Below are positions 4,323 through 20,794 of a stretch of DNA of 64,000 bases, one piece after another. The notes under the pieces were generated by a model. It was not told the origin of the DNA and did not search any database. It was given only the letters and a program-made list of their open reading frames with translations. A program made the translations under genes and the position numbers. The DNA is from Citrobacter youngae ATCC 29220 (lineage in GTDB: Bacteria; Pseudomonadota; Gammaproteobacteria; Enterobacterales; Enterobacteriaceae): contig NZ_GG730299.1 in the NCBI RefSeq assembly GCF_000155975.1, positions 434,305 to 498,304 on the forward strand, in the 5' to 3' direction. Every line of letters starts with the position of its first letter. The first letter of the stretch is position 1.

Positions 4323-5234
4323 ATGAAAAATATTGAGACAAAATGGTTATATGATTTCCTGACGCTGGAGGCATGCCGTCATTTTTCCCAGGCTGCGGAG
4401 GAGCGCAATATATCCCAGCCGGCATTTAGCCGGAGGATCAAAGCGCTCGAATCAGCCGTGGGGGTGCAGCTGTTTGATCGCACAACGACGCCGCTGCAAC
4501 TGACGGAAGAGGGGAAGCTATTCCATTCGCAAACCCGTAGCCTGCTGCAACAGTTGGAATGCAATCTGGACGAACTCAGTGGTCACAACCTGCTTGGGGT
4601 TCCTAATATAAAAATCGCGGCAGCGCATTCGCTGTCGCTGACCATGTTGCCCCGATTAGTGCATTCCATGGCGGCCTGGGGGGAAGAGTTTGTCTATCAC
4701 GTTGAGGCGATTGACGTGGTGCAGGCGGTGAATACCCTGCGTGAGGGAAAGAGTGATTTTATTATCTCATTTCGCGATGAAGACTTAATGCAGTCCCCTT
4801 TTTGCGGCCTGAAAGTGTTTGAGTCTGAACTGTATCCGGTTTGTGCCGCCGATGCGCAGGGGAAGGCGTTGTTTGATATTTATCAGCCGCAGGTGCCATT
4901 CCTGAATTACACCGCGACATCGTATATGGGAAGGCTGGTTAATCGTCATTTGGCGGAAGTGGACGGCATCCAGGCGCGTACGATATTTATGTCATCAATG
5001 AGTGAATTACTTAAAAACATGGCGCTCGATGGGCATGGTATCGCCTGGCTGCCAGCGTGGTCGATCGTCAACGAATTGCGGGATCAACGCCTGGTTTGCC
5101 TGGATATACCTGAACTGATGGTGCCTATTCAGGCCTATATTTACCGGATGGATACCCGACTGAATAAAACGGCGGAACATTTCTGGCGTATTTTATACAA
5201 CCATATGCCGGAGGACCTGGTTTCGCTTACCTGA
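4323..5234 (+). CDS. HypT-like LysR-family transcriptional regulator
   Basis: This 303-residue LysR regulator has an N-terminal winged helix-turn-helix (FSQAAEERNISQPAFSRRIKALE, residues 21-43) and a substrate-binding-like domain. It resembles E. coli HypT (YjiE), the hypochlorite-responsive regulator, from the start (NIETKWLYDFLTLE) to near the end. The three methionines whose oxidation activates HypT appear to be kept: Met116 in HSMAAW, Met202 in SYMGRL, Met226 in SSMSELL. I chose ATG 4323 because it matches the family N-terminus; the GTG at 4314 is a less likely alternative, and the ribosome site is weak in either case. It diverges from the aspartate racemase/Dcu pair and may control it. 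Whether it truly senses hypochlorite is inferred from similarity. Confidence 0.88.
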   Translation: MKNIETKWLYDFLTLEACRHFSQAAEERNISQPAFSRRIKALESAVGVQLFDRTTTPLQLTEEGKLFHSQTRSLLQQLECNLDELSGHNLLGVPNIKIAAAHSLSLTMLPRLVHSMAAWGEEFVYHVEAIDVVQAVNTLREGKSDFIISFRDEDLMQSPFCGLKVFESELYPVCAADAQGKALFDIYQPQVPFLNYTATSYMGRLVNRHLAEVDGIQARTIFMSSMSELLKNMALDGHGIAWLPAWSIVNELRDQRLVCLDIPELMVPIQAYIYRMDTRLNKTAEHFWRILYNHMPEDLVSLT

Positions 5235-5265
5235 ACGCGCCAGCCCGCCTGGCGCGCAGGCATTA

Positions 5266-6123
5266 TTACGCCACCGCTTTTTCTGTTTGCTGGGCTTTCA
5301 GCCAGGCAATCTCTTCCGCCCAGATATCCGGATTAATCGTTTCCAGCACCAGTGGGATGCCGTCAAAACGACTATCCTGCATGATCCAACGGAAAGCATC
5401 GTGACCGATATTGCCTTCCCCTAAGCTGTGGTGGCGGTCAACGCGACTGCCAAACGCGCTCTTGGCGTCGTTCAGGTGCATACCGCGCAGATAATTGAAA
5501 CCGACAATGCGTTCAAATTCCGCAAACGTCTTTTCGCATTCCTCGGCGGAACGCAAATCGTAACCGGCAGCGAAAGCGTGGCAGGTATCAATACAGACGC
5601 CCACACGGGATTTATCTTCCACTCCGTCAATAATGGCGGCAAGGTGCTCAAACTTAAATCCGAGATTGCTGCCCTGTCCGGCGGTATTTTCGATAACTGC
5701 CGTCACCCCCTGGGTCTGTGCGAGAGCGATGTTGATAGATTCAGCAATGCGCGCCAGGCATTCATCTTCCGGGATCTGCATCAAATGGCTGCCCGGGTGA
5801 AAGTTGAGCAACGATAAACCGAGCAGTTCGCAGCGCTGCATTTCATCGATAAACGCATCGCGTGATTTTTCCAGCGCATCGCTGACCGGGTGGCCGAGGT
5901 TAATCAGGTAGCTGTCGTGAGGCAGGATCTGGGCGGAAGTATAGTGATACTTCTCGCAAGCGGATTTGAAATCATCAATGATTTCAGTGGTCAACGGCGC
6001 GGCGCGCCACTGACGCTGATTTTTGGTGAACAGGGCGAATGCGGTAGCTTCGATTTCTGCGGCCCGAATAGCGGCGTTAGCCAGACCGCCAGCGGCGCTT
6101 ACGTGCGCTCCGATATATTTCAT
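5266..6123 (-). CDS. nfo: Endonuclease IV
   Basis: This is the 285-residue AP endonuclease of base excision repair, which nicks DNA 5' of abasic sites and acts on oxidised bases and 3' blocks. The length equals E. coli Nfo and the sequence is typical: [17 protein letters not shown] at the start, the zinc-ligand motifs [33 protein letters not shown] and MHLNDAK, and LVLETIN near the end. These supply the His/Glu/Asp ligands of the trinuclear zinc site. It is convergent with the HypT-like gene and lies 71 bases downstream of yeiH on the same strand. In E. coli it belongs to the SoxRS regulon; I did not identify a clear soxbox here. Confidence 0.97.
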
Positions 6124-6194
6124 AAATTTAACCCGCCATACTCAAATACAAAAAGGGAGAGTATAGCGGGTTAAGGGAGGTGAGTCGTGATCGT

Positions 6195-7244
6195 TTATGC
6201 CATTAGCGCGTGGATAGCGAAGTTAATCGCGCCGCCGCCAACAATCAGCCAGACAAACAGCAGTAGCGCCATCAGCAAGGGTTTAGCACCGGCTTTTTTC
6301 AGTGCGCTCACGTGAGTGGTCAGCCCCAGTGCGGCCATCGCCATTGCCAGCAGCACGGTATCCAGCGTCACCAACATGCTCACTACAGACTGCGGCAGCA
6401 GGTGGAAAGAGTTAAAAATCGCCACCACAATGAACAGGATGGCAAACCATGGAATGGTGATTTTGCTCTTCTCACCACCGGTTGCCGGGGACAGTTGTTT
6501 AACCCGTGCCGCCAGGATGATGAGGAACGGAGCCAGCATCATCACGCGCAGCATTTTGGCAATAACCGCGGCGTTTTCAGCATCCGGGTTAATGGCGTGT
6601 CCGGCGGCAACAACCTGCGCAACTTCATGCATGGTGGAGCCAATGTAAATCCCGTAGGTTTCTGGAGTAAACCAGTGCGAAAGCAGCGGATACATCGCCG
6701 GATACAGGAAGATAGCGATAGTACCGAAGATAACCACGGTGGCGACGGCGACCGTTACCTTACTGGCTTCGGCTTTGACGACAGGCTCTGTTGCCAGTAC
6801 CGCGGCGGCGCCACAAATGCTGCTCCCCGCGCCGATTAACCAGCTGGTGTGACGGTCCAGACCAAACACTTTTTGCCCAAGGAAGCAGGCAATCATAAAG
6901 GTGCTGCTGAGCGTTAATATGTCGATTACGATACCGCTGACGCCGACATCAGCAATTTGCGCAAAGGTCAGGCGGAAACCGTAGAGGATTATCCCCAGGC
7001 GTAATAAATGTTGTTTGGCAAACAGTACGCCGCCATCGCAGCTTTTCCAGATTTGCGGATACACGGTGTTGCCGATAACCATCCCAAACAAGATAGCTAA
7101 GGTGAGGGCGCTAAACCCGGCACCTGCGACGGCGGGAATGGATCCCCCCCATAAGGCGACCCCAGTGATAACTGCACTCAGGGCAAGCCCCGGAATAAAA
7201 TGCCACGCTGTACGACGATGAGTCTGTAAGGTGAGTTCTGTCAT
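6195..7244 (-). CDS. yeiH: YeiH family inner-membrane protein (UPF0324, putative sulfate exporter)
   Basis: This is a 349-residue polytopic membrane protein with about ten hydrophobic segments, belonging to the UPF0324/YeiH family, often annotated as putative sulfate exporters. Typical stretches include LLRLGIILYGFRLTFAQIADVG and WLIGAGSSICGAAAVLATEPVVKA, and the length matches E. coli YeiH. A GGAGAAGGA ribosome site precedes the ATG at 7244. The LysR gene yeiE is divergent, 244 bases away across an ERIC element, and is the usual neighbour and presumed regulator. No transport substrate can be assigned from the sequence. Confidence 0.93.
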   Translation of the reverse strand: MTELTLQTHRRTAWHFIPGLALSAVITGVALWGGSIPAVAGAGFSALTLAILFGMVIGNTVYPQIWKSCDGGVLFAKQHLLRLGIILYGFRLTFAQIADVGVSGIVIDILTLSSTFMIACFLGQKVFGLDRHTSWLIGAGSSICGAAAVLATEPVVKAEASKVTVAVATVVIFGTIAIFLYPAMYPLLSHWFTPETYGIYIGSTMHEVAQVVAAGHAINPDAENAAVIAKMLRVMMLAPFLIILAARVKQLSPATGGEKSKITIPWFAILFIVVAIFNSFHLLPQSVVSMLVTLDTVLLAMAMAALGLTTHVSALKKAGAKPLLMALLLFVWLIVGGGAINFAIHALMA

Positions 7245-7333
7245 ATCCTTCTCCTTTATCTGGGTAAAAGAGTACGGCGATGTGGTTTAAAAATAAAATT
7301 GATTATATATTTATAATTAATCTATATAAGTGG

Positions 7334-7460
7334 TATACCCGTCATACTTCAAGTTGCATGTGCGTTGGCTGCGCTCGTTCACCCCAGTCACGTACTTAAG
7401 TACGCTCCCGGGGATGCTCTCTCTTGCCGCCTTCCTGCAACTCGAATTATTTAGGGTATA
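7334..7460. repeat. ERIC (intergenic repeat unit) element, 127 bp
   Basis: This is a 127-base palindromic element, exactly the classical ERIC length. The ends TATACCCGTCATACTTCAAG and AATTATTTAGGGTATA are imperfect inverted repeats, and the core CACCCCAGTCACGTACTTAA matches the well-known ERIC core in reverse orientation. It lies between the divergent yeiH and yeiE starts and so sits in or beside both promoters. Confidence 0.92.
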
Positions 7461-7488
7461 AGTAACGGATATCCGGTGGAAAACGACT

Positions 7489-8370
7489 ATGCATATCACC
7501 CTGCGACAACTTGAAGTGTTTGCTGAGGTACTGAAAAGCGGCTCGACGACCCAGGCATCTGTCATGCTGGCGTTGTCGCAGTCGGCGGTGAGTGCGGCGC
7601 TTACCGATCTGGAAGGGCAGCTTGGCGTACAGCTGTTTGACCGCGTTGGCAAGCGGCTGGTGGTCAATGAGCACGGGCGCTTGCTCTACCCGCGCGCGTT
7701 GGCGTTACTTGAGCAAACGACGGAAATCGAACAGCTTTTTCGTGAGGATAATGGCGCGATTCGCGTCTATGCCAGCAGCACCATTGGCAACTACATTTTG
7801 CCTGCCATGATTGCCCGCTATCGCCAGGATTTTCCCGACTTACCGCTGGAGCTGAGCGTGGGTAACAGCCAGGATGTGATCAACGCAGTTCTCGATTTCC
7901 GGGTGGACATTGGGCTGATTGAAGGACCGTGCCACAGTACGGAAATTATCTCTGAACCGTGGCTGGAGGACGAACTGGTGGTGTTTGCCGCTCCGTCTTC
8001 GCCGCTAACAAAAGGCCCCGTGACGCTGGATCAACTGGCCGCGTCGCCGTGGATCCTCCGTGAGCGAGGCTCCGGTACGCGTGAGCTGGTGGATTATCTG
8101 TTGCTATCGCATCTGCCGAGATTTCAGATGGCGATGGAGCTGGGCAATTCTGAGGCCATTAAGCATGCGGTGCGCCATGGACTCGGTATCAGCTGTTTGT
8201 CGCGTCGGGTCATTGCAGAACAATTGCAGGCGGGCACGCTGAGTGAGGTCCCCGTGCCGCTACCGCGTTTAGTCCGCACGCTCTGGCGCGTTCATCATCG
8301 ACAAAAACATCTTTCTAATGCGATTACGCGCTTTTTACATTACAGCGACCAGGTTGCGCAGGGCGAATAA
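7489..8370 (+). CDS. yeiE: LysR-family regulator YeiE
   Basis: This 293-residue LysR-type regulator begins [42 protein letters not shown], a standard winged helix-turn-helix in the first 60 residues, followed by a periplasmic-binding-protein-like effector domain ([31 protein letters not shown]). Length and sequence match E. coli YeiE, which has been linked to iron homeostasis and, in related bacteria, to sulfite response. It is divergent from yeiH, the usual arrangement of a LysR regulator with a target. The ERIC repeat between them leaves only 28 bases upstream of the start codon, so its promoter probably overlaps the repeat. Confidence 0.94.
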
Positions 8371-8564: not shown

Positions 8565-10034
8565 ATGGTTTCCGAAACTAAAACCACAGAAGCGCCCACG
8601 CTACGTCGTGAACTGAAGGCGCGTCACCTGACGATGATTGCCATCGGAGGCTCCATCGGTACAGGTCTTTTCGTTGCATCTGGTGCAACTATTTCTGCGG
8701 CGGGTCCTGGCGGCGCGTTGTTCTCGTATATTCTGATTGGTCTGATGGTGTACTTCCTGATGACCAGTCTCGGTGAGCTGGCGGCCTATATGCCGGTTTC
8801 CGGTTCATTCTCTACTTACGGTCAGAACTATGTTGAAGAAGGCTTCGGCTTCGCGCTGGGCTGGAACTACTGGTACAACTGGGCGGTGACGATTGCCGTT
8901 GACCTGGTGGCCGCACAGTTGGTGATGAGCTGGTGGTTCCCGGACACGCCGGGCTGGATCTGGAGTGCGCTGTTCCTCGGCGTTATCTTCCTGCTGAACT
9001 ACATTTCCGTGCGCGGATTTGGCGAAGCGGAGTACTGGTTCTCACTGATCAAAGTGACCACCGTGATTATCTTTATCGTGGTTGGCGTGATGATGATTTT
9101 CGGTATCTTCAAAGGCGCTCAGCCGGTAGGGTGGAGCAACTGGACGACAGGTGATGCGCCGTTTGCCGGTGGTTTTGCCGCCATGATTGGCGTGGCGATG
9201 ATTGTCGGCTTCTCATTCCAGGGAACTGAGCTTATCGGTATCGCGGCGGGGGAATCTGAAGATCCGGAGAAAAACATTCCTCGCGCGGTGCGTCAGGTTT
9301 TCTGGCGAATTCTTCTGTTCTATGTGTTCGCGATTTTGATTATCAGCCTGATTATCCCGTACACCGATCCGAGCCTGCTGCGCAATGACGTAAAAGATAT
9401 CAGCGTTAGCCCATTCACGCTGGTCTTCCAGCATGCGGGTCTGCTGTCTGCGGCGGCGGTGATGAATGCGGTAATCCTGACGGCGGTACTGTCGGCGGGT
9501 AACTCCGGGATGTATGCATCAACGCGTATGCTTTACACCCTGGCATGTGACGGCAAAGCGCCGCGCATTTTCGCCAAACTGTCTCGTGGCGGTGTGCCGC
9601 GTAACGCGCTGTATGCGACCACCGTGGTAGCGGGGCTGTGCTTCCTGACCTCTATGTTTGGCAACCAGACCGTATACCTGTGGCTGCTGAATACTTCCGG
9701 GATGACGGGGTTTATCGCCTGGTTGGGGATCGCTATCAGCCACTATCGTTTCCGTCGCGGCTATGTGCTGCAGGGCCACGATGTGAAGGATTTGCCGTAT
9801 CGTTCTGGACTGTTCCCGTTGGGACCGATCTTTGCCTTCGTGCTGTGTCTGATCATCACTCTGGGTCAGAACTATGAAGCGTTCCTGAAGGACAGCATTG
9901 ACTGGGGCGGCGTCATGGCAACCTATATCGGTATCCCGCTGTTCCTGATTATCTGGTTTGGTTACAAGCTGACGAAAGGGACTCATTTCGTTCGCTACAG
10001 CGAAATGAAATTCCCTGGACGCGTGAAGAAATAA
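8565..10034 (+). CDS. lysP: Lysine-specific permease and CadC co-sensor
   Basis: This 489-residue amino acid permease of the APC superfamily has twelve predicted membrane segments. It imports L-lysine with protons, and in E. coli also restrains CadC when lysine is scarce. Family features are ELKARHLTMIAIGGSIGTGLF near residue 20, the AGESEDPEKNIPRAVRQVFWR loop near residue 230, and the C-terminal charged tail KGTHFVRYSEMKFPGRVKK. The length equals E. coli LysP. It stands alone: 194 bases after yeiE and ended by a strong terminator shared with the convergent cirA gene. Confidence 0.97.
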   Translation: MVSETKTTEAPTLRRELKARHLTMIAIGGSIGTGLFVASGATISAAGPGGALFSYILIGLMVYFLMTSLGELAAYMPVSGSFSTYGQNYVEEGFGFALGWNYWYNWAVTIAVDLVAAQLVMSWWFPDTPGWIWSALFLGVIFLLNYISVRGFGEAEYWFSLIKVTTVIIFIVVGVMMIFGIFKGAQPVGWSNWTTGDAPFAGGFAAMIGVAMIVGFSFQGTELIGIAAGESEDPEKNIPRAVRQVFWRILLFYVFAILIISLIIPYTDPSLLRNDVKDISVSPFTLVFQHAGLLSAAAVMNAVILTAVLSAGNSGMYASTRMLYTLACDGKAPRIFAKLSRGGVPRNALYATTVVAGLCFLTSMFGNQTVYLWLLNTSGMTGFIAWLGIAISHYRFRRGYVLQGHDVKDLPYRSGLFPLGPIFAFVLCLIITLGQNYEAFLKDSIDWGGVMATYIGIPLFLIIWFGYKLTKGTHFVRYSEMKFPGRVKK

Positions 10035-10053
10035 CCGTATAAGAAAGCATAAC

Positions 10054-10086
10054 AAAACCCCGGCATGGTGAGTGCCGGGGTTTTTT
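10054..10086. terminator. Bidirectional terminator between lysP and cirA
   Basis: AAAACCCCGGCA (10054-10065) and TGCCGGGGTTTT (10073-10084) form a 12-bp perfect stem. T runs follow in both directions, so it can serve lysP on the plus strand and cirA on the minus strand. Confidence 0.95.
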
Positions 10087-10098
10087 ATTGCACCAGAC

Positions 10099-12084
10099 TC
10101 AGAAGCTGTAAGTCAGGCCAACCGTGTAGCGACGCCCATCGAGAACGGTGTCGTAGGTGTCATAATCGATTTGCTTATCCAGCACGTTATACACGCCAGC
10201 GGTCATCAGCAGATCCTTGGTAGCGTAGTAACGTAAACCGACATCGACCTGCGTATAGGATGGCGTGCCCTGTGCCATGGAGGTACGGCTCAGGTACTCA
10301 GACGTTTTGCCGCGCAGGTTCAAACGACTCCAGAAGCCGAGATCCTGCGTTGCCTGCCAGTCCACGGTGGTGTTAAACATATGCTTCGGCATTTTGTTTA
10401 ATGGCTGACCGGAGAACTGACCGCTTTTCTGTTCAGATTCCGTGTAAGTGTAGTTCGCCGTCCAGTTGACGTCGGAGGTGATTTTCCAGCCGAAGGTGGA
10501 TTCTACGCCGCGCATATTGGCTTTATCGACGTTCACGCGGTCGCTGACAAAGTCATAGCTGGTATTGCCGATGGTGCAGGCCGGGTCGGCGCTGCTGTTA
10601 CAGCGACGCACTTCGGTAATTTTGTTTTTGAAATCGGTATTGAACAACGTGACGCCCGCGTTGAGATCGTTACCGTTATCCCAAAGTAAACCGATCTCTT
10701 CGCTCAGGCTTTTCTCTGGCTTCAGATCCGGGTTGCCGACAATGATACCGTTCAGTCGACCACCGCCGGTGACCTGTCCCCAACTGGCAGAAGACTGGCG
10801 CAGATCCGGCGCGCGATAGCCCGCGGAAACACCCCCTTTTAAGGTCCATTGATCGCTCAGATGCCAGACGCCGTAGCCGCGCGGCGTCCAGTTGTCGCCG
10901 TAGTTTTCATCTTTATCCATACGCAGACCGCCGGTCAGCGCGAAGGTATCGGTAATGGTCCATTCGTCTTCAGCAAACAGCGCCCAGCTCCAGCGGGTCA
11001 GTTTGTTCAGTCCATCGGCGGCCTGCAGTTGATTCCCGTTATCACGCAGTTTCTCATAACGGTACTGTCCACCGACTGTCAGGGTATGTGCCCCGAGGAA
11101 AACCTGGTTCTGATTGTTAAAGATGGTGTTGTAGGACTTCATCTGGCGACCTGGGTTTTCGGTCTCTTCCTGCTGGATATAGCTGGTGGCGTTGAAGTCG
11201 TCGTAATAACCGCTGTGGGTGAGTGAGTATGTGGTGTGCACATACTTGCTTTCGCTTTTACTGTTGGGCTTACAGCTGCCGTTGCGGCAGTTTTCTTCAG
11301 CCTTGGATTTTCCCGGCGTACTGTCGCGATCCTGCAGTTCACGTGCGTAATCGAAGTCGATGTCGTTTTTATCATCCGGCGTGAAGTTCAGAGTTATCCC
11401 CCCGTTACGCATACGCTGCTCATTGTAGCCATTGACGATTTCATCTTCCGCACGGTGAGAGAATAACCCGGTCACTTTGGCGCCGAGTAATCCGTCAATC
11501 AGCGGCCCGGACGCATAGGCGTTCGTCTGATAAATATCACCGGAATCTCTGTCTTCCTGGAAAGTGGCATCGCCATGCAAGGAGCCGGTCCAGGCTTTGG
11601 TATTCGAGACTTTTTTGGTGATGACGTTAATGACGCCGCCCATCGCATCGGAGCCGTACAGCGATGACATTGGACCACGAATAACTTCGATGCGCTCGAT
11701 GGACTCCAGCGGTGGGAGCCAGCCTTGTTCAATACCGGCGTTATCGCTGTTAGGTCGCGTGCCGCGCGTGCTGATGCGTTTGCCGTTGACCAGGAACAGC
11801 GTGTATTGCGAAGCCATACCACGAATACTGATATCGCTGCTGCTACCGCCACCGGTGACGACGACGCCAGGGACATCTTTAAGCGCATCGGTGACATCGC
11901 GATAGGCTTTGTCTTCAATCTGCTGCTTGGTAATCACCGAAATTGAAGCGGGGGCATCCTGAATTTTCTGCTCGAAGCCGGTAGCGGTGACTACGACGGT
12001 ATCCTGTTCAGCGGTATGGCCGAGTGATGGGAGACTGGCGACGCATACTGCGGCAGCTACAGCCTTAACGTGAGGTATAGTCAT
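10099..12084 (-). CDS. cirA: CirA-type TonB-dependent outer-membrane receptor
   Basis: This is a 661-residue TonB-dependent receptor at the cirA locus, presumably for catecholate siderophore breakdown products; in E. coli CirA is also the colicin I receptor. A signal peptide (MTIPHVKAVAAAVCVASLPSLGHTA) is followed by a TonB box (EQDTVVVTAT), a plug domain (DAPASISVITKQQIEDK ... ERIEVIRGPMSSLYGSDAMGG) and a beta barrel ending in the aromatic F (YTVGLTYSF). The start at 12084 gives E. coli-like length and has GGA nine bases upstream; the frame is open a further 46 codons, but that extension is not signal-like. Against my memory of E. coli CirA the barrel is much more diverged than neighbouring genes. 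Two short-range cysteine pairs (CRNGSC and CNSSADPAC) lie in likely surface loops. The ligand is not certain. Confidence 0.85.
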   Translation of the reverse strand: MTIPHVKAVAAAVCVASLPSLGHTAEQDTVVVTATGFEQKIQDAPASISVITKQQIEDKAYRDVTDALKDVPGVVVTGGGSSSDISIRGMASQYTLFLVNGKRISTRGTRPNSDNAGIEQGWLPPLESIERIEVIRGPMSSLYGSDAMGGVINVITKKVSNTKAWTGSLHGDATFQEDRDSGDIYQTNAYASGPLIDGLLGAKVTGLFSHRAEDEIVNGYNEQRMRNGGITLNFTPDDKNDIDFDYARELQDRDSTPGKSKAEENCRNGSCKPNSKSESKYVHTTYSLTHSGYYDDFNATSYIQQEETENPGRQMKSYNTIFNNQNQVFLGAHTLTVGGQYRYEKLRDNGNQLQAADGLNKLTRWSWALFAEDEWTITDTFALTGGLRMDKDENYGDNWTPRGYGVWHLSDQWTLKGGVSAGYRAPDLRQSSASWGQVTGGGRLNGIIVGNPDLKPEKSLSEEIGLLWDNGNDLNAGVTLFNTDFKNKITEVRRCNSSADPACTIGNTSYDFVSDRVNVDKANMRGVESTFGWKITSDVNWTANYTYTESEQKSGQFSGQPLNKMPKHMFNTTVDWQATQDLGFWSRLNLRGKTSEYLSRTSMAQGTPSYTQVDVGLRYYATKDLLMTAGVYNVLDKQIDYDTYDTVLDGRRYTVGLTYSF

Positions 12085-12428
12085 TTGTATCATTCCATTT
12101 AAATGAATCAAACTGCGCGTCATGTGAAAGGCCATGACAATTGTATGTATTTGTCTTTTAAGGACTCTTTTCAGTAAAGAAGCGAATGGATTGTACAAAA
12201 GTATGAATATTTGTAAACACAAATGATAATCGAAATCATTTGTGTTTAATTTAAATGGAATTGAAATTGCTTTTAAATCAATAAGATAGTTGAAAAAGAA
12301 AAATGGAGAAAAAGTGAAGGGATGATGGAGAGATGAAGAGGGCGGAAACCTTTTTGACGCTGAAGAATCACTTCAGGTTTATCACTGAATGGCAGCGGCG
12401 ATAGCACCGCTGCCATGCTATGACTGGC
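12085..12428. other. cirA promoter region and spacer
   Basis: These 344 bases hold the cirA promoter with its Fur palindrome (12215-12247), a very A-rich stretch around 12250-12330, and two small hairpins near the end of the transporter gene: CTGAAG/CTTCAG at 12360-12376 and ATGGCAGCGG/CCGCTGCCAT at 12389-12416. The second may end the upstream minus-strand operon, although it has no T tract. I see no gene here. Confidence 0.6.
12215..12247 (-). promoter_or_regulatory. Fur box for cirA
   Basis: AAACACAAATGAT (12215-12227) and ATCATTTGTGTTT (12235-12247) are perfect 13-base inverted arms around AATCGAA. The centre TGATAATCGAAATCATT closely follows the Fur consensus GATAATGATAATCATTATC. It is about 130 bases upstream of the cirA start, so cirA should be repressed by Fur in iron-rich cells. 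Confidence 0.85.
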
Positions 12429-13751
12429 CTACAGTCGATGGAATTTGGCGAGTAAAGCCAGTGAAAGAGTGGTTAACAGGATGGCGATCACAGCATAGAG
12501 GTAGACTCCAGACCATTCCCAGCTGTTCTTCACCAATATTACCGGTACCCCTGCTAACGCCGCGCCGACATAGCTAAATAATCCCCGGAAGCCGGTTATT
12601 GAGCCCGCCGCATCTTTATGAGTGACATCCAGACACCCCACTGCAAAAAGCATATGCGGCCCGTACAGGGCGAAACCCATGATAGTGAATAGCATAGCCG
12701 TAATGGTATATGAGGTGTCCTGGACCAGTGGGATTAAGATAATACACACGCACAGCATTAAGGCGAATACCAGGCCTGTCATCCAGCGGTTACTTTTGAA
12801 CATAAAGTCAGACAGATAACCAGCTAATAGCCCTCCGACAAGGCCTCCAGCTTCAAACCACGAGATAATGGAGTTGGCTTTAATCAGGCTCCAGCCATGT
12901 ACCTGAGAATAGTAAATTTGCGGCCAGTCATTGAGGATCGTTCGGGCAATATAGACGGACATATCACCAACGATAATAATCCACACTAACGGGTTGATCA
13001 GGATATATTTAACGAAAATCTGCCAAAAAGGGAGATTAACCGGGCTGGCTTTAACCTGGGCCAGTTCTGTCGGATCCTTGCGCCATTCACCAACATTGGG
13101 TAAACCCAGGGTCCCGGGGCGGTCCTTAATGGTAAAGAGTGCAACTACCCCCATCAGCAGGGAGATAGCGCCCGGTACATAGAAACCCATTTTCCAACTG
13201 CTGCTCCAGACAATCGCAAAGCTGGTTAACAGCGGGGCGAGACTGCCGCCGATATTATGCGCAGCTTCAACGACCGCCCACCAACGCCCGCGTTCATTTT
13301 TGGAAAACCACGATGCCATGATCTTTGCCATTGGCGGAAAACTGGTGCCCTGAAGAATGGCATTGAGGCTGTACAACACATAAAACGCGGCAATGCTGTC
13401 GGAAAAACCAAACAGAATATTGACGATCCCAACACCGATGAGGACTGGGCCGGTCATGGCTTTAGGATTAATTTTATCAACCAGCATACCGCCAACAAAC
13501 TTCATTGAGCCATACAAGATGTAAAACAGTGAAGACATGATGGCAAAATCTTCTGCAGTCAGAGCGGTATCAGACAACATTGCCGGCATGGCTGCTGAGA
13601 AGTTTTTACGCGTTAAATAAAAGACGGCGTAAGAGATAAAAACTGAAGTAATAATCTCTATACGAAATTTTTTATAGGTCCGATCAATTTCTTTTTTTTC
13701 TTTTACAACCGGCTTATCAGCCTGGCTGAAAATAAACGATTTCAAGCTCAT
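12429..13751 (-). CDS. OPA-family organophosphate:phosphate antiporter (MFS), substrate unknown
   Basis: This 440-residue twelve-segment transporter belongs to the organophosphate:phosphate antiporter family (UhpT/UhpC/GlpT/PgtP). Residues that hold phosphate in UhpT/GlpT are kept: Arg48 in FYLTRKNF, Lys84 in YGSMKFVGG and Arg270 in VYIARTILNDW. So it probably exchanges a phosphate ester for inorganic phosphate, rather than sensing as UhpC does. It is the second gene of a minus-strand pair, 31 bases after a SerB-like phosphatase, and that pair is divergent from an L-serine deaminase gene. The context suggests O-phosphoserine as the substrate; this is inference and not a known assignment. There is no UhpAB-type regulator nearby. 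Confidence 0.85.
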   Translation of the reverse strand: MSLKSFIFSQADKPVVKEKKEIDRTYKKFRIEIITSVFISYAVFYLTRKNFSAAMPAMLSDTALTAEDFAIMSSLFYILYGSMKFVGGMLVDKINPKAMTGPVLIGVGIVNILFGFSDSIAAFYVLYSLNAILQGTSFPPMAKIMASWFSKNERGRWWAVVEAAHNIGGSLAPLLTSFAIVWSSSWKMGFYVPGAISLLMGVVALFTIKDRPGTLGLPNVGEWRKDPTELAQVKASPVNLPFWQIFVKYILINPLVWIIIVGDMSVYIARTILNDWPQIYYSQVHGWSLIKANSIISWFEAGGLVGGLLAGYLSDFMFKSNRWMTGLVFALMLCVCIILIPLVQDTSYTITAMLFTIMGFALYGPHMLFAVGCLDVTHKDAAGSITGFRGLFSYVGAALAGVPVILVKNSWEWSGVYLYAVIAILLTTLSLALLAKFHRL

Positions 13752-13782
13752 ATAAATTTCCCTTCAGACAATACTCGTGGGG

Positions 13783-14670
13783 TTATAATCCATTTTCGAT
13801 GTAGAACAGAAGCGACTCGAAGCCGTGAAAATTAATCTGATTTTTTATTAAGTCTCTGACCGCCGGTTTGGCTTTCCACGCAATACCCGTGCCTGCATAG
13901 GTGAGCATGGGAATGTCGTTGGCGCCATCACCGCAGGCGATGATATTATGCTGCGATACCTGCAGCGTTTCGGCGAGTAGTTCCAATTTTTTTTTCTTAT
14001 TTTCTGCATTCATAATGGGGGCAGTTATATTATCGGTTAGCTCACCGTTACTGATTTCAACTGTATTAGAAAAAACATAATCCAGTTGATATTTTTCCTG
14101 TAAGCGGCGAGTGAAAATATCTAAACCACCGGAAATGATCGCAGTCTTAAATCCTCTCTGTTTGAGAATTGGCAAAATAGCGGTGATGCCGGGAGAGGCG
14201 GTCATTTGATCGCATACGGTATTAATCACATCAAGATGCGTTCCTTTCAACATCCCGATACGACGGGTAAAACTGCTGTTAAAATCCAGTTTCCCTTCCA
14301 TCGCCTGCTGGGTTAGTCGTGCTATTTGCGTAGAGATGCCTAGCGCTCGGGCAATTTCATCGACACCTTCTTCTTCGATAAATGTCGAGTCCATGTCGAA
14401 TGCAACGATTCCGCTTGCGGGAAGGATTTGCGGTTTAATGAAGAAATCAAATTGCTGAGTAAATGATGTGACCCTCATTTTATTATATATGTCATTTGTG
14501 AATGATTTATCCGGTATTGATAATTTGAAGTATGATTTATTGATGGCTGCTATATGTAGCTGTTCCAGTGTGCACTGATTTTGTTTGTTGTTAGTATTCA
14601 GAAACGCTTCGTGCAACCATGCATGAAGTTTTTCAGGCTCTTTCACACTGATAAAATAAATAATTGTCAT
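13783..14670 (-). CDS. SerB-like HAD phosphatase (putative phosphoserine phosphatase)
   Basis: This 295-residue HAD-superfamily phosphatase is of the SerB type. The four HAD motifs are visible: FDMDST at 91-96 (nucleophile Asp92, acid/base Asp94), Ser180 in IISGG, the lysine-rich stretch near 225-229, and GDGANDIPML at 247-256. The SerB-specific cap context EEEGVDEIARALG follows motif I. The first 85 residues are a divergent N-terminal part. Canonical serB lies elsewhere (next to radA/nadR), so this is a second, specialised copy. It is the first gene of the pair with the OPA transporter and would release serine and phosphate from imported phosphoserine, the phosphate serving as exchange ion. 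It is noticeably more AT-rich than the flanking core genes, which fits acquisition. Confidence 0.85.
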   Translation of the reverse strand: MTIIYFISVKEPEKLHAWLHEAFLNTNNKQNQCTLEQLHIAAINKSYFKLSIPDKSFTNDIYNKMRVTSFTQQFDFFIKPQILPASGIVAFDMDSTFIEEEGVDEIARALGISTQIARLTQQAMEGKLDFNSSFTRRIGMLKGTHLDVINTVCDQMTASPGITAILPILKQRGFKTAIISGGLDIFTRRLQEKYQLDYVFSNTVEISNGELTDNITAPIMNAENKKKKLELLAETLQVSQHNIIACGDGANDIPMLTYAGTGIAWKAKPAVRDLIKNQINFHGFESLLFYIENGL

Positions 14671-14763
14671 AATGTCACTCCTGTAAGCTGAGTTTATTGT
14701 AATCGTGGGCGGGGGCGATTGAATCTTGCTTTATCACAGTTGTGAATGTTAATAGAAAGATAA

Positions 14764-14822
14764 AAAAGTATTGTTTTTTATACCGGCTGATAAACAAATT
14801 CTGAAAAGTATCGTTTTTGATA
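14764..14822. promoter_or_regulatory. Pair of 19-bp direct repeats, candidate operator
   Basis: AAAAGTATTGTTTTTTATA (14764-14782) and AAAAGTATCGTTTTTGATA (14804-14822) match at 17 of 19 positions and begin exactly 40 bases apart, close to four helical turns. They lie in the 216-base divergent region between the SerB-like and the deaminase genes. The XRE protein encoded at the end of the plus-strand arm is the obvious candidate ligand. Binding is inferred. Confidence 0.5.
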
Positions 14823-14886
14823 TATATATCACGTTCTGTTGCCACTGGCGCTATATTCTGTGGTGATTAACAGGGAAGGATATAAA

Positions 14887-16269
14887 TTGGAAAGCTGTGT
14901 TGATATTTTTAAAGTCGTCATTGGACCTTCCAGTTCCAGAACGGTCGGACCTATGCGCGCTGCGTTTAACTTCATTTCTCAATTAAAGCTGCAGGAGATT
15001 TTACCGCTGACGCGAAAAATTGAGGTTGAGCTGTATGGCGCGCTCTCGTTAAGCCGTAAGTGCCATAACGTTGATATCGCTCTTTACCTGGGCTTGTTGG
15101 GTAATCAGCCGGATGATGTTGATTTACGTCAGCAGATGGAGGCCATTAAACGCGCTGAACAGAACGGCATTTTGGCGATCTCTCCTTCAGTTGTCGTGGC
15201 GGTCACTATTTTGGCGAATCAGCAACCGCATTCCGGCCATCCCTATGCGATGACGTTTCGCGCCAGGGATGATTATTTCACGCTGTATGAAGAAACATGG
15301 TTTTCAACTGGCGCCGGTCAGGTTTGTAAACCTGGCGAGCAGCCCTCCGTAGCCTCTACGCAAGAAAGCGTATCTCCTTTTGCTTTTCAACATGCGGCGC
15401 AGTTGCAGGCACTGTGTCAACGCAATGGCTTATCCGTTGCGGCGTTAATGATGAAAAACGAATTGCTGGCGCATTCACAGGCGACACTGGAGGACTATTT
15501 TCGGCAGATTTGGGCGGTTATGCAGCAGGCGGTTCATCGTGGTCTGCATACTGAAGGGCTGCTGCCGGGGCCGTATCAGGTGCCGCGCAGGGCTTGCGCG
15601 CTGCATAAATCACTGTCAATGAGACCCTCTGCCAACGACTTTCTCACCAACCTCAACTGGGTGAATGCGTTTGCGATTGCCGTCAGCGAGGAAAATGCCG
15701 CCGGAGGGCGGGTGGTAACCGCACCGACCAATGGTGCGAGCGGCATCATCCCCGCGGTGCTCAGTTGGTACGATAAGTTTGTCTGTGAGCTGGATAGCGC
15801 ATCGGTTATTCGCTTTTTTCTTACCGCTGGCGCTATCGCGCTACTCTTCAAACAAAATGCATCCATTTTAGGTTCTGAAGTCGGGTGTCAGGGGGAGATC
15901 GGCGTGGCCAGTTCGATGGCCGCGGCCGGATTAGCTGAACTGATGGGGGCGTCAGTTGCTCAGGTGCTGAATGCCGCAGAAATCGCCATGGAACACCATT
16001 TGGGGCTGACCTGCGATCCGGTCGGTGGTCAGGTGCAAATTCCGTGCGTTGAACGCAACGCGATTTCGTCCGTAAAGGCGATTAACGCTGCAACGATGGC
16101 GATGAGCCGCATCAGTGAGCCATGCGTATCGCTCGACGAGGTAATTGCAGCGATGTATGAAACGGGTAAAGACATGAGCGCGAAGTACCGTGAAACGTAT
16201 CACGGCTGCCTGGGGAAAATTCAGCCCAAAAAACGGGGAGGGTGGCATGAAATATCACACCATGAATAA
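14887..16269 (+). CDS. Iron-sulfur L-serine ammonia-lyase (SdaA/SdaB-like)
   Basis: This protein of about 460 residues belongs to the iron-sulfur L-serine dehydratase family, which converts L-serine to pyruvate and ammonia. The N-terminal beta domain ([19 protein letters not shown]) and the alpha domain (NEENAAGG-like [19 protein letters not shown]) are fused as in E. coli SdaA. The three cysteines expected to hold the [4Fe-4S] cluster are present in [17 protein letters not shown] and IPCVERNAI. The start is TTG at 14887 with AGGGAAGGA six bases upstream, giving the family N-terminus and length; the frame extends back to another TTG at 14839 without a ribosome site. The conserved His of PSSSHTVGP is Arg here. 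The divergent phosphatase/transporter pair suggests it consumes serine from phosphoserine. It may be oxygen sensitive like its relatives. Confidence 0.9.
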
Positions 16270-16636
16270 TGATGAAATCATCTTGTCATTGTGCGCGCGT
16301 ATCCGGGAAACGCGGATTTCTCTGGCGCTGACGCAGCAACAGTTTGCCGACAGCGCTCAGGTGGGCGTTGCGACCATTAAACGTATCGAGAAAGGCGGGG
16401 GATTGAACCTCGATACGCTTATCTCCATGCTGCGGGCACTGAATAAACTGCACCATTTGGATGCAATTTTATTCGAGTCTGAAGTGCGGAATTTTAGCGA
16501 AGGATATGAGGGAAGTGAGAGTACGTCGCGGTTACAGGTACGCCAACAGGCTGCCGATCTAAATCGTAAAGCGTCCGCGCCGCAATCCGAAGAGATAAGC
16601 TACAGCGCGGCAATAGAAAACACTCTGTATTGGTGA
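16247..16636 (+). CDS. XRE-family helix-turn-helix regulator
   Basis: This 129-residue protein has an XRE/Cro-type helix-turn-helix in the first 65 residues (CARIRETRISLALTQQQFADSAQVGVATIKRIEKGGG ... LDTLISMLRALNKL), followed by a polar tail with no recognised domain. ATG 16247 is preceded by GGGGAGGG; it overlaps the end of the deaminase gene by 23 bases, pointing to translational coupling. It resembles the antitoxin/regulator type of short XRE proteins, but no toxin gene is adjacent. Its place at the end of the deaminase arm suggests it controls the divergent serine/phosphoserine cluster, perhaps through the 19-bp repeats at 14764-14822. Its stop is immediately next to the convergent yeiG stop. 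Confidence 0.85.
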   Translation: MKYHTMNNDEIILSLCARIRETRISLALTQQQFADSAQVGVATIKRIEKGGGLNLDTLISMLRALNKLHHLDAILFESEVRNFSEGYEGSESTSRLQVRQQAADLNRKASAPQSEEISYSAAIENTLYW

Positions 16637-17783
<1,147 letters not shown>

Positions 17784-18452
17784 ATGTCATCACTCAGTAA
17801 AGAAGCGGCTTTGGTTCATGAAGCGCTGGTCGCGCGTGGTCTCGAAACACCACTACGCCCGCCCGTGCAGGAGATGGATAACGAAACGCGCAAACGTCTT
17901 ATCTCAGGCCACATGACCGAGATTATGCAATTGCTCAATCTCGATTTGAGCGATGACAGTTTGATGGAAACTCCGCATCGCATTGCGAAAATGTATGTCG
18001 ATGAGATTTTCTCCGGCCTCGATTATGCCAACTTCCCGAAAATCACCGTCATTGAAAACAAAATGAAAGTGGACGAGATGGTCACGGTTCGCGATATCAC
18101 GCTGACCAGCACCTGCGAGCATCACTTTGTCACTATTGATGGCAAAGCGACGGTGGCGTATATCCCGAAAGATTCGGTCATCGGTCTGTCGAAGATCAAT
18201 CGTATTGTGCAGTTCTTTGCCCAGCGTCCGCAGGTACAGGAACGCCTGACCCAGCAAATTCTCACCGCGCTGCAAACGCTGCTCGGGACGAATAATGTCG
18301 CGGTGTCGATCGATGCGGTGCATTACTGCGTGAAAGCGCGCGGCATTCGCGATGCGACCAGCGCAACCACCACCACTTCTCTGGGCGGATTGTTTAAGTC
18401 CAGCCAGAACACGCGTCAGGAATTCCTGCGCGCAGTACGTCATCACAACTGA
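17784..18452 (+). CDS. folE: GTP cyclohydrolase I
   Basis: This 222-residue type I GTP cyclohydrolase is the first enzyme of folate (and queuosine) synthesis, turning GTP into 7,8-dihydroneopterin triphosphate. It is nearly identical to E. coli FolE in length and sequence. Zinc and catalytic residues are visible in [14 protein letters not shown] (Cys and two His) and in [13 protein letters not shown] start it at ATG 17784 ([15 protein letters not shown]) because this matches the family N-terminus and has GGAG upstream; the ATG at 17745 adds 13 unconserved residues. yeiB follows by 14 bases and is probably co-transcribed. Confidence 0.97.
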
Positions 18453-18466
18453 TTAGGGCAGGAGCC

Positions 18467-19624
18467 ATGGAGCGTAATGTCACGCTGGATTTTGTTCGTG
18501 GCGTCGCCATTCTTGGCATCCTGCTTCTCAATATTAACGCCTTTGGCCTGCCGAAGGCGGCGTACCTCAACCCCGCCTGGTATGGCAATATCACCTTACC
18601 CGACGCCTGGAGCTGGGCGGTGCTTGATCTCTTCGCACAGGTCAAGTTTCTCACGCTGTTTGCATTGCTGTTTGGCGCAGGGCTGCAAATGCTGCTCCCG
18701 CGCGGCAAACGCTGGATCCAGTCGCGGCTTACGCTGCTGGCGCTGTTGGGGTTTATTCACGGTTTACTCTTCTGGGACGGCGATATCCTGCTGGCGTATG
18801 GCCTGATCGGCCTGATTTGCTGGCGGTTGATTCGCGATGCGCCTTCGGTAAAAAGCCTGTTTAACACCGGCATCCTGCTTTATCTGGTGGGGATTGGCGT
18901 CCTGCTGCTGCTGGGCGTTATCTCCGGAGGCGAGACCAGCCGAGCCTGGACGCCGGATGCGTCAGCGTTGCTGTATGAAAAATACTGGAAAGTGAATGGC
19001 GGTCTGGAAGCGGTCAGCAATCGCGTGGATATGATGTCTAATAGCTTGCTGGCGCTGGGCGCGCAGTACGGCTGGCAGCTGGCGGGGATGATGCTGCTTG
19101 GCGCGGCATTAATGCGCAGCGGCTGGCTGAAAGGGCAGTACAGTTTGCAGCATTACCGACGTACCGGCTTGCTGCTGGTCATGATTGGGATGGCGATTAA
19201 CCTGCCGGCTATTATCATTCAGTGGCATCTGGACTGGGCCTACCGCTGGTGCGCTTTCCTGTTACAGGCCCCGCGAGAGCTGGGCGCGCCGTTGCAGACT
19301 ATCGGCTACGCCGCGCTGATGTTTGGCTTCTGGCCGCAGCTTAGCCGCTTAAAATGGGTGATTGCCATCGCCTGCGTGGGACGTATGGCATTAACCAACT
19401 ATCTGCTGCAAACCTTAATCTGCACCACGCTGTTTTATCAATTCGGCTTGTTTATGAAATTTGACCGCCTGGAGCTGCTCTGTTTCGTCATCCCGGTCTG
19501 GGCCGTTAATCTTCTTCTCTCCGTCATTTGGCTGCGTTTTTACCGGCAGGGCCCGGTAGAGTGGCTGTGGCGTCAATTAACCCTGCGTGCTTCGGGGACA
19601 TCATTACCACGTACATCCAGATAA
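18467..19624 (+). CDS. yeiB: YeiB inner-membrane protein (DUF418 family)
   Basis: This is a 385-residue polytopic inner-membrane protein with roughly ten hydrophobic segments, of the DUF418/YeiB family. It begins MERNVTLDFVRGVAILGILLLN, a pattern shared with acyltransferase-like membrane proteins, and contains the family stretch FLTLFALLFGAGLQMLLPRG. Length and sequence match E. coli YeiB. The molecular function is not known. It lies 14 bases after folE, indicating one transcript, and its stop codon overlaps the left half of the candidate CRP site of the next gene, galS. Confidence 0.93.
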   Translation: MERNVTLDFVRGVAILGILLLNINAFGLPKAAYLNPAWYGNITLPDAWSWAVLDLFAQVKFLTLFALLFGAGLQMLLPRGKRWIQSRLTLLALLGFIHGLLFWDGDILLAYGLIGLICWRLIRDAPSVKSLFNTGILLYLVGIGVLLLLGVISGGETSRAWTPDASALLYEKYWKVNGGLEAVSNRVDMMSNSLLALGAQYGWQLAGMMLLGAALMRSGWLKGQYSLQHYRRTGLLLVMIGMAINLPAIIIQWHLDWAYRWCAFLLQAPRELGAPLQTIGYAALMFGFWPQLSRLKWVIAIACVGRMALTNYLLQTLICTTLFYQFGLFMKFDRLELLCFVIPVWAVNLLLSVIWLRFYRQGPVEWLWRQLTLRASGTSLPRTSR

Positions 19625-19638
19625 CGATCTGGATCACA
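19623..19638 (+). promoter_or_regulatory. Candidate CRP site for galS
   Basis: AACGA-TCTGGA-TCACA: the right half is perfect for CRP and the spacer agrees, while the left half is degenerate. It lies 130 bases upstream of the galS start and next to a Gal operator, consistent with cAMP-CRP control known for galS in E. coli. Confidence 0.55.
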
Positions 19639-19654
19639 TTCATTAACAAAATGG

Positions 19655-19670
19655 ATGTAAGCGCTTTCAT
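19655..19670 (+). promoter_or_regulatory. Gal operator upstream of galS
   Basis: ATGTAAGCGCTTTCAT is nearly palindromic and fits the GalR/GalS operator pattern GTGNAANCGNTTNCAC in its core. It lies about 100 bases before the galS start, as expected for autoregulation. Confidence 0.75.
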
Positions 19671-19768
19671 TCCTGTGACATCACTCACGCAGTCCGTTTC
19701 ATTGTGCTGACAAAATACGCAGCCTGGGGTGTCTGCGGGTAACCGCAATCTAAAACAGGGCAGTGAAT

Positions 19769-20794
19769 ATGGTAACCATACGTGATGTGGCGCGTCAGTC
19801 TGGCGTATCTGTAGCGACCGTTTCCCGGGTACTGAACAACAGTGCGCTGGTGAGTCCCGATACTCGTGAAGCGGTGATGAAGGCCGTCACTCAGTTAGGC
19901 TATCGACCTAACGCCAATGCGCAAGCGCTGGCGACGCAGGTAAGTGACACCATTGGTGTTGTGGTGATGGATGTGTCAGATGCGTTTTTTGGCGCGCTGG
20001 TAAAAGCCGTAGATATGGTTGCCCAGCAGCATCAGAAATATGTCCTGATTGGCAATAGCTATCATGAAGCTGAAAAAGAACGTCATGCTATAGAAGTTTT
20101 GATTCGCCAACGCTGTAACGCCCTGATTGTGCACTCTAAAGCTCTCAGCGATCGGGAGCTGGCAGAGTTTATGGATCAGATCCCCGGCATGGTGCTGATT
20201 AATCGCCTTGTAGCGGGTTATGCCCACCGTTGCGTCTGCCTGGATAATATCAGCGGCGCCAAAATGGCGACCCGTATGCTGCTGAATAATGGCCATCAGC
20301 GTATTGGTTATCTGGCGTCAAGCCATCGTATTGAAGATGATGCGATGCGCAAAGAAGGGTGGTTTACGGCCCTGAAAGAACAAGGAATTGATGCGGCAGA
20401 AAGCTGGATCGGTACCGGTTCGCCCGATATGCAGGGCGGTGAATCTGCGATGGTGGAACTGCTGGGGCGCAATTTGCAACTGACGGCGGTCTTTGCCTAC
20501 AACGACAATATGGCTGCCGGGGCGCTGACCGCGTTAAAAGACAACGGCATCGCCATCCCCTTACATCTTTCTATCATTGGTTTTGATGATATTCCCATTG
20601 CGCGTTACACCGATCCGCAGCTGACAACCGTGCGCTATCCCATTGCCTCAATGGCAAAAATGGCGACGGAGCTTGCGCTACAGGGTGCGGCGGGCACCTT
20701 GGATCCAGAAGCGTCGCATTGTTTTATGCCGACGCTGGTGCGTCGTCATTCTGTGGCATTGCGGCAGAATGCGGCACCGATCACTAACTCATAA
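19769..20794 (+). CDS. galS: Galactose isorepressor GalS
   Basis: This 341-residue LacI-family repressor controls the mgl galactose uptake operon and its own gene, and is induced by galactose or fucose. It starts [29 protein letters not shown], a typical LacI-type helix-turn-helix and hinge, followed by the sugar-binding core ([42 protein letters not shown]). ATG 19769 has AGGG eight bases upstream and matches the E. coli start; the GTG at 19763 would add two residues. It lies directly upstream of mglB in the same direction, the usual arrangement, but mgl has its own promoter. Confidence 0.96.

Follow-up and report, generated by a model that had tools for sequence, protein, structure and literature searches.

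Within a stretch of 64,000 nucleotides from Citrobacter youngae ATCC 29220 (hereafter the window), a block of four genes in two divergent arms is flanked by a TonB receptor gene and yeiG, and the balance of probability tips modestly towards its being a chromosomal nutrient module for O-phosphoserine, dedicated to import, dephosphorylation and serine breakdown. An OPA-type antiporter would import phosphoserine in exchange for phosphate, a second SerB-type phosphatase would split it into serine and phosphate, the released phosphate would exit through the same antiporter, and a divergent iron-sulfur lyase would convert the serine into pyruvate and ammonia. An XRE protein would be the local regulator, probably a repressor, that acts on a pair of 16-bp sites in the region separating the arms. 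Every component is a divergent representative of a family already known. We observed the gene families, the fold of the phosphatase, the conserved residues, the inheritance as one block and the conserved operator-like sites; we infer the substrate, the direction and stoichiometry of transport, the substrate of the lyase, and repression and its signal.

The phosphatase gene (positions 13783 to 14670, minus strand, 295 amino acids) encodes a protein that passes the SerB equivalog model TIGR00338 (208.8 against a cut-off of 144.15) and fails NF008350, the model of the enterobacterial housekeeping SerB (196.4 against 413). A further, ordinary SerB is encoded in the genome, and the two are 34.7% identical over the HAD part. 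An ACT-like domain (about residues 1–82) precedes the HAD domain, and the match to the SerB fold (4EZE and SerB2) spans residues 1–295; 4EZE is the solved ortholog from Salmonella Typhi, t0658, a structural-genomics target released in 2012. We counted conserved residues of the module in 11 loci (the window, L001, L040–L046, L053 and L056), leaving out L011/L054 and L013/L055, which were taken as the same as L043 and L045, as well as L014 and L134–L143. The catalytic residues of the HAD domain, together with the Glu and Arg of the substrate site (E20 and R56 in the M. jannaschii SerB), were kept in 11/11 orthologs. The SerB-like HAD phosphatase proposed by the first-pass annotation is confirmed by model, residues and fold. 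The ACT-like domain has changed far more quickly than the HAD domain (29% versus 69.5% identity to E. coli), and its ratio of nonsynonymous to synonymous substitution rates (dN/dS), at most 0.15 in two Citrobacter pairs, shows weak constraint only.

The carrier (12429 to 13751, minus strand, 440 amino acids) matches Pfam MFS_1, with UhpC as its best NCBIfam model. It reaches the cut-off of no OPA model, its scores being 337.6 against 407.75 for TIGR00881, 422.1 against 564 for UhpC, 191.8 against 497 for UhpT, 265 against 632.55 for GlpT and 216.3 against 750 for PgtP. We therefore call it a divergent OPA-type protein without placing it in a named subfamily. We compared its residues in a survey of 49 rows from which three duplicates and L008, an MFS protein about 20% identical with Asp at position 162, were dropped, giving 14 module carriers and 31 others; L004 (in-frame stop) and L009 had been skipped beforehand. 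The phosphate-site residues R48, K84, H165 and R270 were intact in all 14 module carriers; their GlpT counterparts, R45, K80, H165 and R269, are the phosphate-binding Arg pair with its Lys and His. The OPA-family assignment of the first-pass annotation is supported by these residues and by none of the named models.

Five further positions were invariant in the 14 module carriers and set them apart. E162, three residues ahead of H165, is Asn in all 31 other sequences, and V161 is Trp; D263 is otherwise found only in PgtP; H366 is Val or Gln elsewhere; and R389 is matched among the 31 by Arg only in PgtP and by Lys only in UhpT, UhpC-type sequences having Val or Leu. T386 was not unusual among the OPA sequences compared. 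O-phosphoserine is an amino analogue of 3-phosphoglycerate, and the combination of a phosphate site with an extra arginine (R389) and an extra acid (E162) would suit its carboxylate and its amino group. Positions 389 and 386 of the carrier align with UhpT 391 and 388, and an unbalanced charge at UhpT 391 is reported, in a discussion citing Hall and Maloney, to shift preference from glucose-6-phosphate to phosphoenolpyruvate or 3-phosphoglycerate (PMC12483993). In the tree the module carriers formed a clade of their own on a long stem (Shimodaira–Hasegawa-like approximate likelihood ratio test, SH-aLRT, 100) that grouped with UhpC-type sequences (98); the method was a quick one in which long branches (PgtP, UhpT) meet, and only the unity of the module clade and its UhpC-type grouping were used.

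The lyase gene (14887 to 16269, plus strand, 460 amino acids, TTG start) is the fourth of its kind in the genome, 52–53% identical to the other three, and its product passes the L-serine ammonia-lyase model TIGR00720 (544.9 against 345.1). The three iron-sulfur cysteines and the catalytic His were kept in 11/11 module lyases, this His corresponding to the base in LpLSD (PMC12647591). Two motifs had changed in all 11 and in none of 32 comparators (29 loci, L102–L130, among the survey matches listed, and the three paralogs of the same genome): SSSHT became SSSRT and TGxGH became SRKCH, that is, an Arg replaces the motif His and a new Arg and Cys stand beside the catalytic His. In addition, the C-terminal Cys, a cluster ligand in LpLSD, was present in the last two residues of 32/32 comparators and absent in 10/11 module lyases, L053 alone ending in Cys. 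This motif change is the strangest feature of the block and was missed in the first-pass annotation, whose SdaA-type serine deaminase stands as to model, cluster cysteines and catalytic His and falls as to the ordinary SdaA type. The enzyme may have either another substrate or altered kinetics or control, for example through loss of an inhibitory tail.

Between the arms lies a 216-bp region (14671 to 14886) that has conserved blocks in an alignment of 11 loci and presumably holds the promoters of both. It contains two copies of GTATYGTTTTTKATAY, 40 bp apart: operator-like site 1, GTATTGTTTTTTATAC, at 14768 to 14783, and site 2, GTATCGTTTTTGATAT, at 14808 to 14823. Both sites were found in 11/11 loci with at most two mismatches. 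Because the pattern derives from these two sites, their exact match is by construction, and the weight of the evidence lies in their retention in relatives and in the lack of any other exact match in the 5.15-Mb genome; at up to two mismatches, the window held four matches where 0.13 were expected, and the intergenic sites are the two that match exactly. The XRE-type protein (16247 to 16636, plus strand, 129 amino acids, Pfam HTH_3), conserved in the 11 loci, would bind the two sites and is the proposed local regulator. By gene numbering (t0658 being 4EZE), we took Salmonella STM2195/t0660, a 'putative DNA-binding protein', as its counterpart. A conserved ATCACAG box stands upstream of the two sites. 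Promoter and terminator scans came close to those of shuffled sequences (10 versus 7.8 and 8 versus 6.0), and positions 12000 to 18000 gave no Rfam match to an RNA element.

We then looked at the inheritance of the block. When E. coli genomes were searched at the DNA level with their own copy as query, the block was present in 80/5,426, with at least 80% of its length in 76; two of the remaining four are listed with IS1, and the one opened (L133) has no annotated phosphatase and only the lyase end left. The carrier gene alone as query likewise found 80 E. coli genomes. In the genus of the window, the carrier and the phosphatase were present in the same 7/17 genomes, and seven of the ten loci found with the phosphatase (five from Citrobacter, two from Salmonella) had all four genes in order. 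The other three were SerB-like genes of other bacteria, 34–41% identical, with the other three genes absent within 8 kb. A full-length phosphatase match occurred in 6 of 295 family genomes, the remaining matches listed covering only the HAD part at 36–41% identity. E. coli K-12 MG1655 has no block, and 31 bases separate its yeiG from cirA. In one of the Salmonella loci (L045), the carrier (8921–10192) matches over residues 1–424 only of a frame that extends to 527 residues; its end seems altered.

A horizontal island or phage cargo is not favoured: wherever a locus from Citrobacter, Salmonella or E. coli was opened, the block occupies the same place, and the identity of the carrier (90% between E. 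coli and the window) is like that of the flanking genes (91% for yeiG, 93% for part of lysP). The corresponding values were 58% for the phosphatase, 73% for the lyase and 64% for the XRE protein. The carrier was found in 5/72,556 plasmid records (tblastn, E≤1e-100), all of them from Salmonella and typed as non-mobilizable, and in the single record opened the carrier has its chromosomal neighbourhood around it. Lyase matches were found in 32 records of a phage collection. A defence system was also considered and rejected, none of the four proteins having a PADLOC match.

Several of our observations weigh against a phosphoserine route. In another family of the same order, 3/140 genomes, which belong to a single genus, have a carrier 78–83% identical that stands with no other block gene in flanks of about 5–10 kb; the carrier can therefore pair with different enzymes or serves some other purpose there. 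The joint travel of the four genes, whose absence the first-pass annotation had named as its own counter-evidence, largely held in Enterobacteriaceae and gave way for the carrier in that other family. In the one lone-carrier genome searched (G568), a SerB-like HAD match (37%) and a lyase match (46%) lie elsewhere, the latter (L071, G568:C8:80257-81639) being interrupted by an in-frame TGA. In L052 (8556–13430), the lone carrier lies between a uracil-permease-like open reading frame (ORF) and three ORFs that by eye resemble a cytolethal distending toxin cluster. The phosphatase and the lyase also evolve faster than the carrier (58% and 73% versus 90%). Since the structure prediction of the carrier was unusable (mean predicted local distance difference test score, pLDDT, of 43.6), E162 and R389 are placed in the pocket by alignment. 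An exact match to the operator pattern occurred in 30/392 family genomes, few of them, at least three (G000, G252 and G845), at the module; with the reversed control pattern matching in 24 genomes, the pattern by itself proves nothing elsewhere in the family. Finally, because both substrate-side motifs of the lyase were changed in 11/11, its substrate may not be L-serine, and the serine-to-pyruvate step is less certain than first proposed since this is not an ordinary SdaA-type enzyme. The phosphoserine import and deamination route of the first-pass annotation keeps the joint travel of its genes and the fit of carrier and phosphatase residues to phosphoserine, and is weakened by an unusual lyase and a carrier that stands alone elsewhere. 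We still regard it as the simplest account, the main rival being another phosphorylated substrate.

According to that rival, which we rate as unlikely though worth serious attention, the same machinery would handle another phosphorylated compound akin to phosphoserine, either a carboxylate or an amino acid (phosphothreonine, 3-phosphoglycerate or some uncommon phospho-amino acid), with the lyase acting on the matching product and not on L-serine. The altered lyase motifs speak for it, as does the sharing of D263 and R389 with PgtP alone; against it, the phosphatase keeps its phosphoserine-site residues and passes the SerB equivalog cut-off, and E162 has no obvious use for 3-phosphoglycerate. 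Less likely again, and offered as speculation, is a lyase remade for a phosphorylated ligand, its two new arginines binding phosphoserine: it could work alongside the phosphatase as an iron-sulfur phosphoserine lyase, releasing pyruvate, ammonia and phosphate in a single step, or be a phosphoserine-activated deaminase, and the carrier would then be a dedicated OPA-type phospho-amino-acid antiporter. We find it improbable that the block balances internal serine and phosphoserine, the carrier exporting phosphoserine or serving phosphate exchange while phosphatase and lyase clear an excess. The genome does already encode an ordinary SerB as well as three further serine lyases, and the direction of transport is not readable from sequence, but balancing could do without a dedicated antiporter tied to the block, and known OPA carriers serve uptake. 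That the carrier is a UhpC-like sensor and not a transporter is very improbable: UhpC is both its nearest named model and its nearest tree group, but the cut-off was missed (422 versus 564), R389 replaces the Val or Leu of UhpC-type sequences, and inspection by eye of the ORFs at 9500–20000 (six proteins scanned) revealed neither a sensor kinase nor a response regulator, whereas ORFs of that kind, also judged by eye, adjoin the UhpC-type genes of L057 and L059. In L059 (G000:C10:2490000-2504000, about 4373–7987), the UhpC-like gene has an in-frame TAG and adjoins ORFs resembling a response regulator and a sensor kinase by eye, with ABC-transporter-like ORFs downstream.

The layout of four genes in two divergent arms was located as the first-pass annotation had stated, including the overlap of the XRE gene with the lyase; three details had to be changed, the starts of the lyase and of the XRE gene and the identity of the neighbour. 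The lyase most likely starts at the TTG at 14887 and not at 14839, because Met-Glu-Ser-Cys is present there in all 10 relatives compared. The XRE gene most likely starts at the ATG at 16247, which is preceded by GGGAGGG and gives a 23-base overlap with the lyase. Compared with the Citrobacter locus L044, dN/dS was 0.030 for the carrier, 0.133 for the phosphatase, 0.088 for the lyase and 0.059 for the XRE gene; all four are under purifying selection and look like real genes. The flanking receptor (10099–12222, minus strand) is not CirA: it failed the CirA model (419.3 against a cut-off of 745), shares 34.5% identity with the E. coli protein and passes NCBIfam NF010038, of the PRK13513 type (1180.8 against 942). 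It stands in place of CirA, with its orientation relative to lysP reversed, and the same type of receptor is also found in the five Citrobacter loci L040–L044 (94–97%) and in L053 (86%). The real cirA and yeiG/fghA do flank the block in those records from E. coli and Salmonella that were opened. The closest among the named relatives found are the Citrobacter loci, with folE 99–100% identical.

If phosphoserine is indeed the substrate, enteric bacteria would have a dedicated route that draws carbon, nitrogen and phosphorus from it at once, and the specificity of a carrier could be read from two residues. The phosphatase solved as 4EZE would gain a role, and there would be a reason for some Citrobacter, some Salmonella and 80/5,426 E. 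coli genomes to carry a second SerB along with an additional serine lyase. In the literature searched, outside which most subscription journals lie, we found no phosphoserine transporter, no nutrient use of phosphoserine, no such gene combination and no paper naming 4EZE.

Among known systems, the phosphoglycerate:phosphate antiporter PgtP resembles the carrier in its phosphate site (Arg, Lys and His), in D263 and in having an unpaired Arg where UhpT has residue 391; it differs in being 30–31% identical, in its failed model (216 versus 750) and in having Asn in place of E162, and no two-component genes were seen near the block. The glucose-6-phosphate receptor UhpC and its relatives are nearest by model and tree, but the carrier falls below their cut-off, forms its own clade and has R389, E162, V161 and H366. 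Compared with SerB, the module phosphatase has the same ACT-like and HAD fold and active-site residues and is a second, accessory copy with a fast-changing N-terminal domain. The module lyase has the iron-sulfur cysteines and catalytic His in common with SdaA, SdaB and TdcG, and differs from them by SSSRT, SRKCH and the C-terminal Cys lost in 10/11. Finally, the cyuP-cyuA pair of E. coli also combines a dedicated importer with a pyruvate- and ammonium-forming iron-sulfur enzyme that is related to serine lyases; it differs in handling cysteine and not a phosphate ester, and no phosphatase partner is named in the accessible part of that work (PMC9040844).

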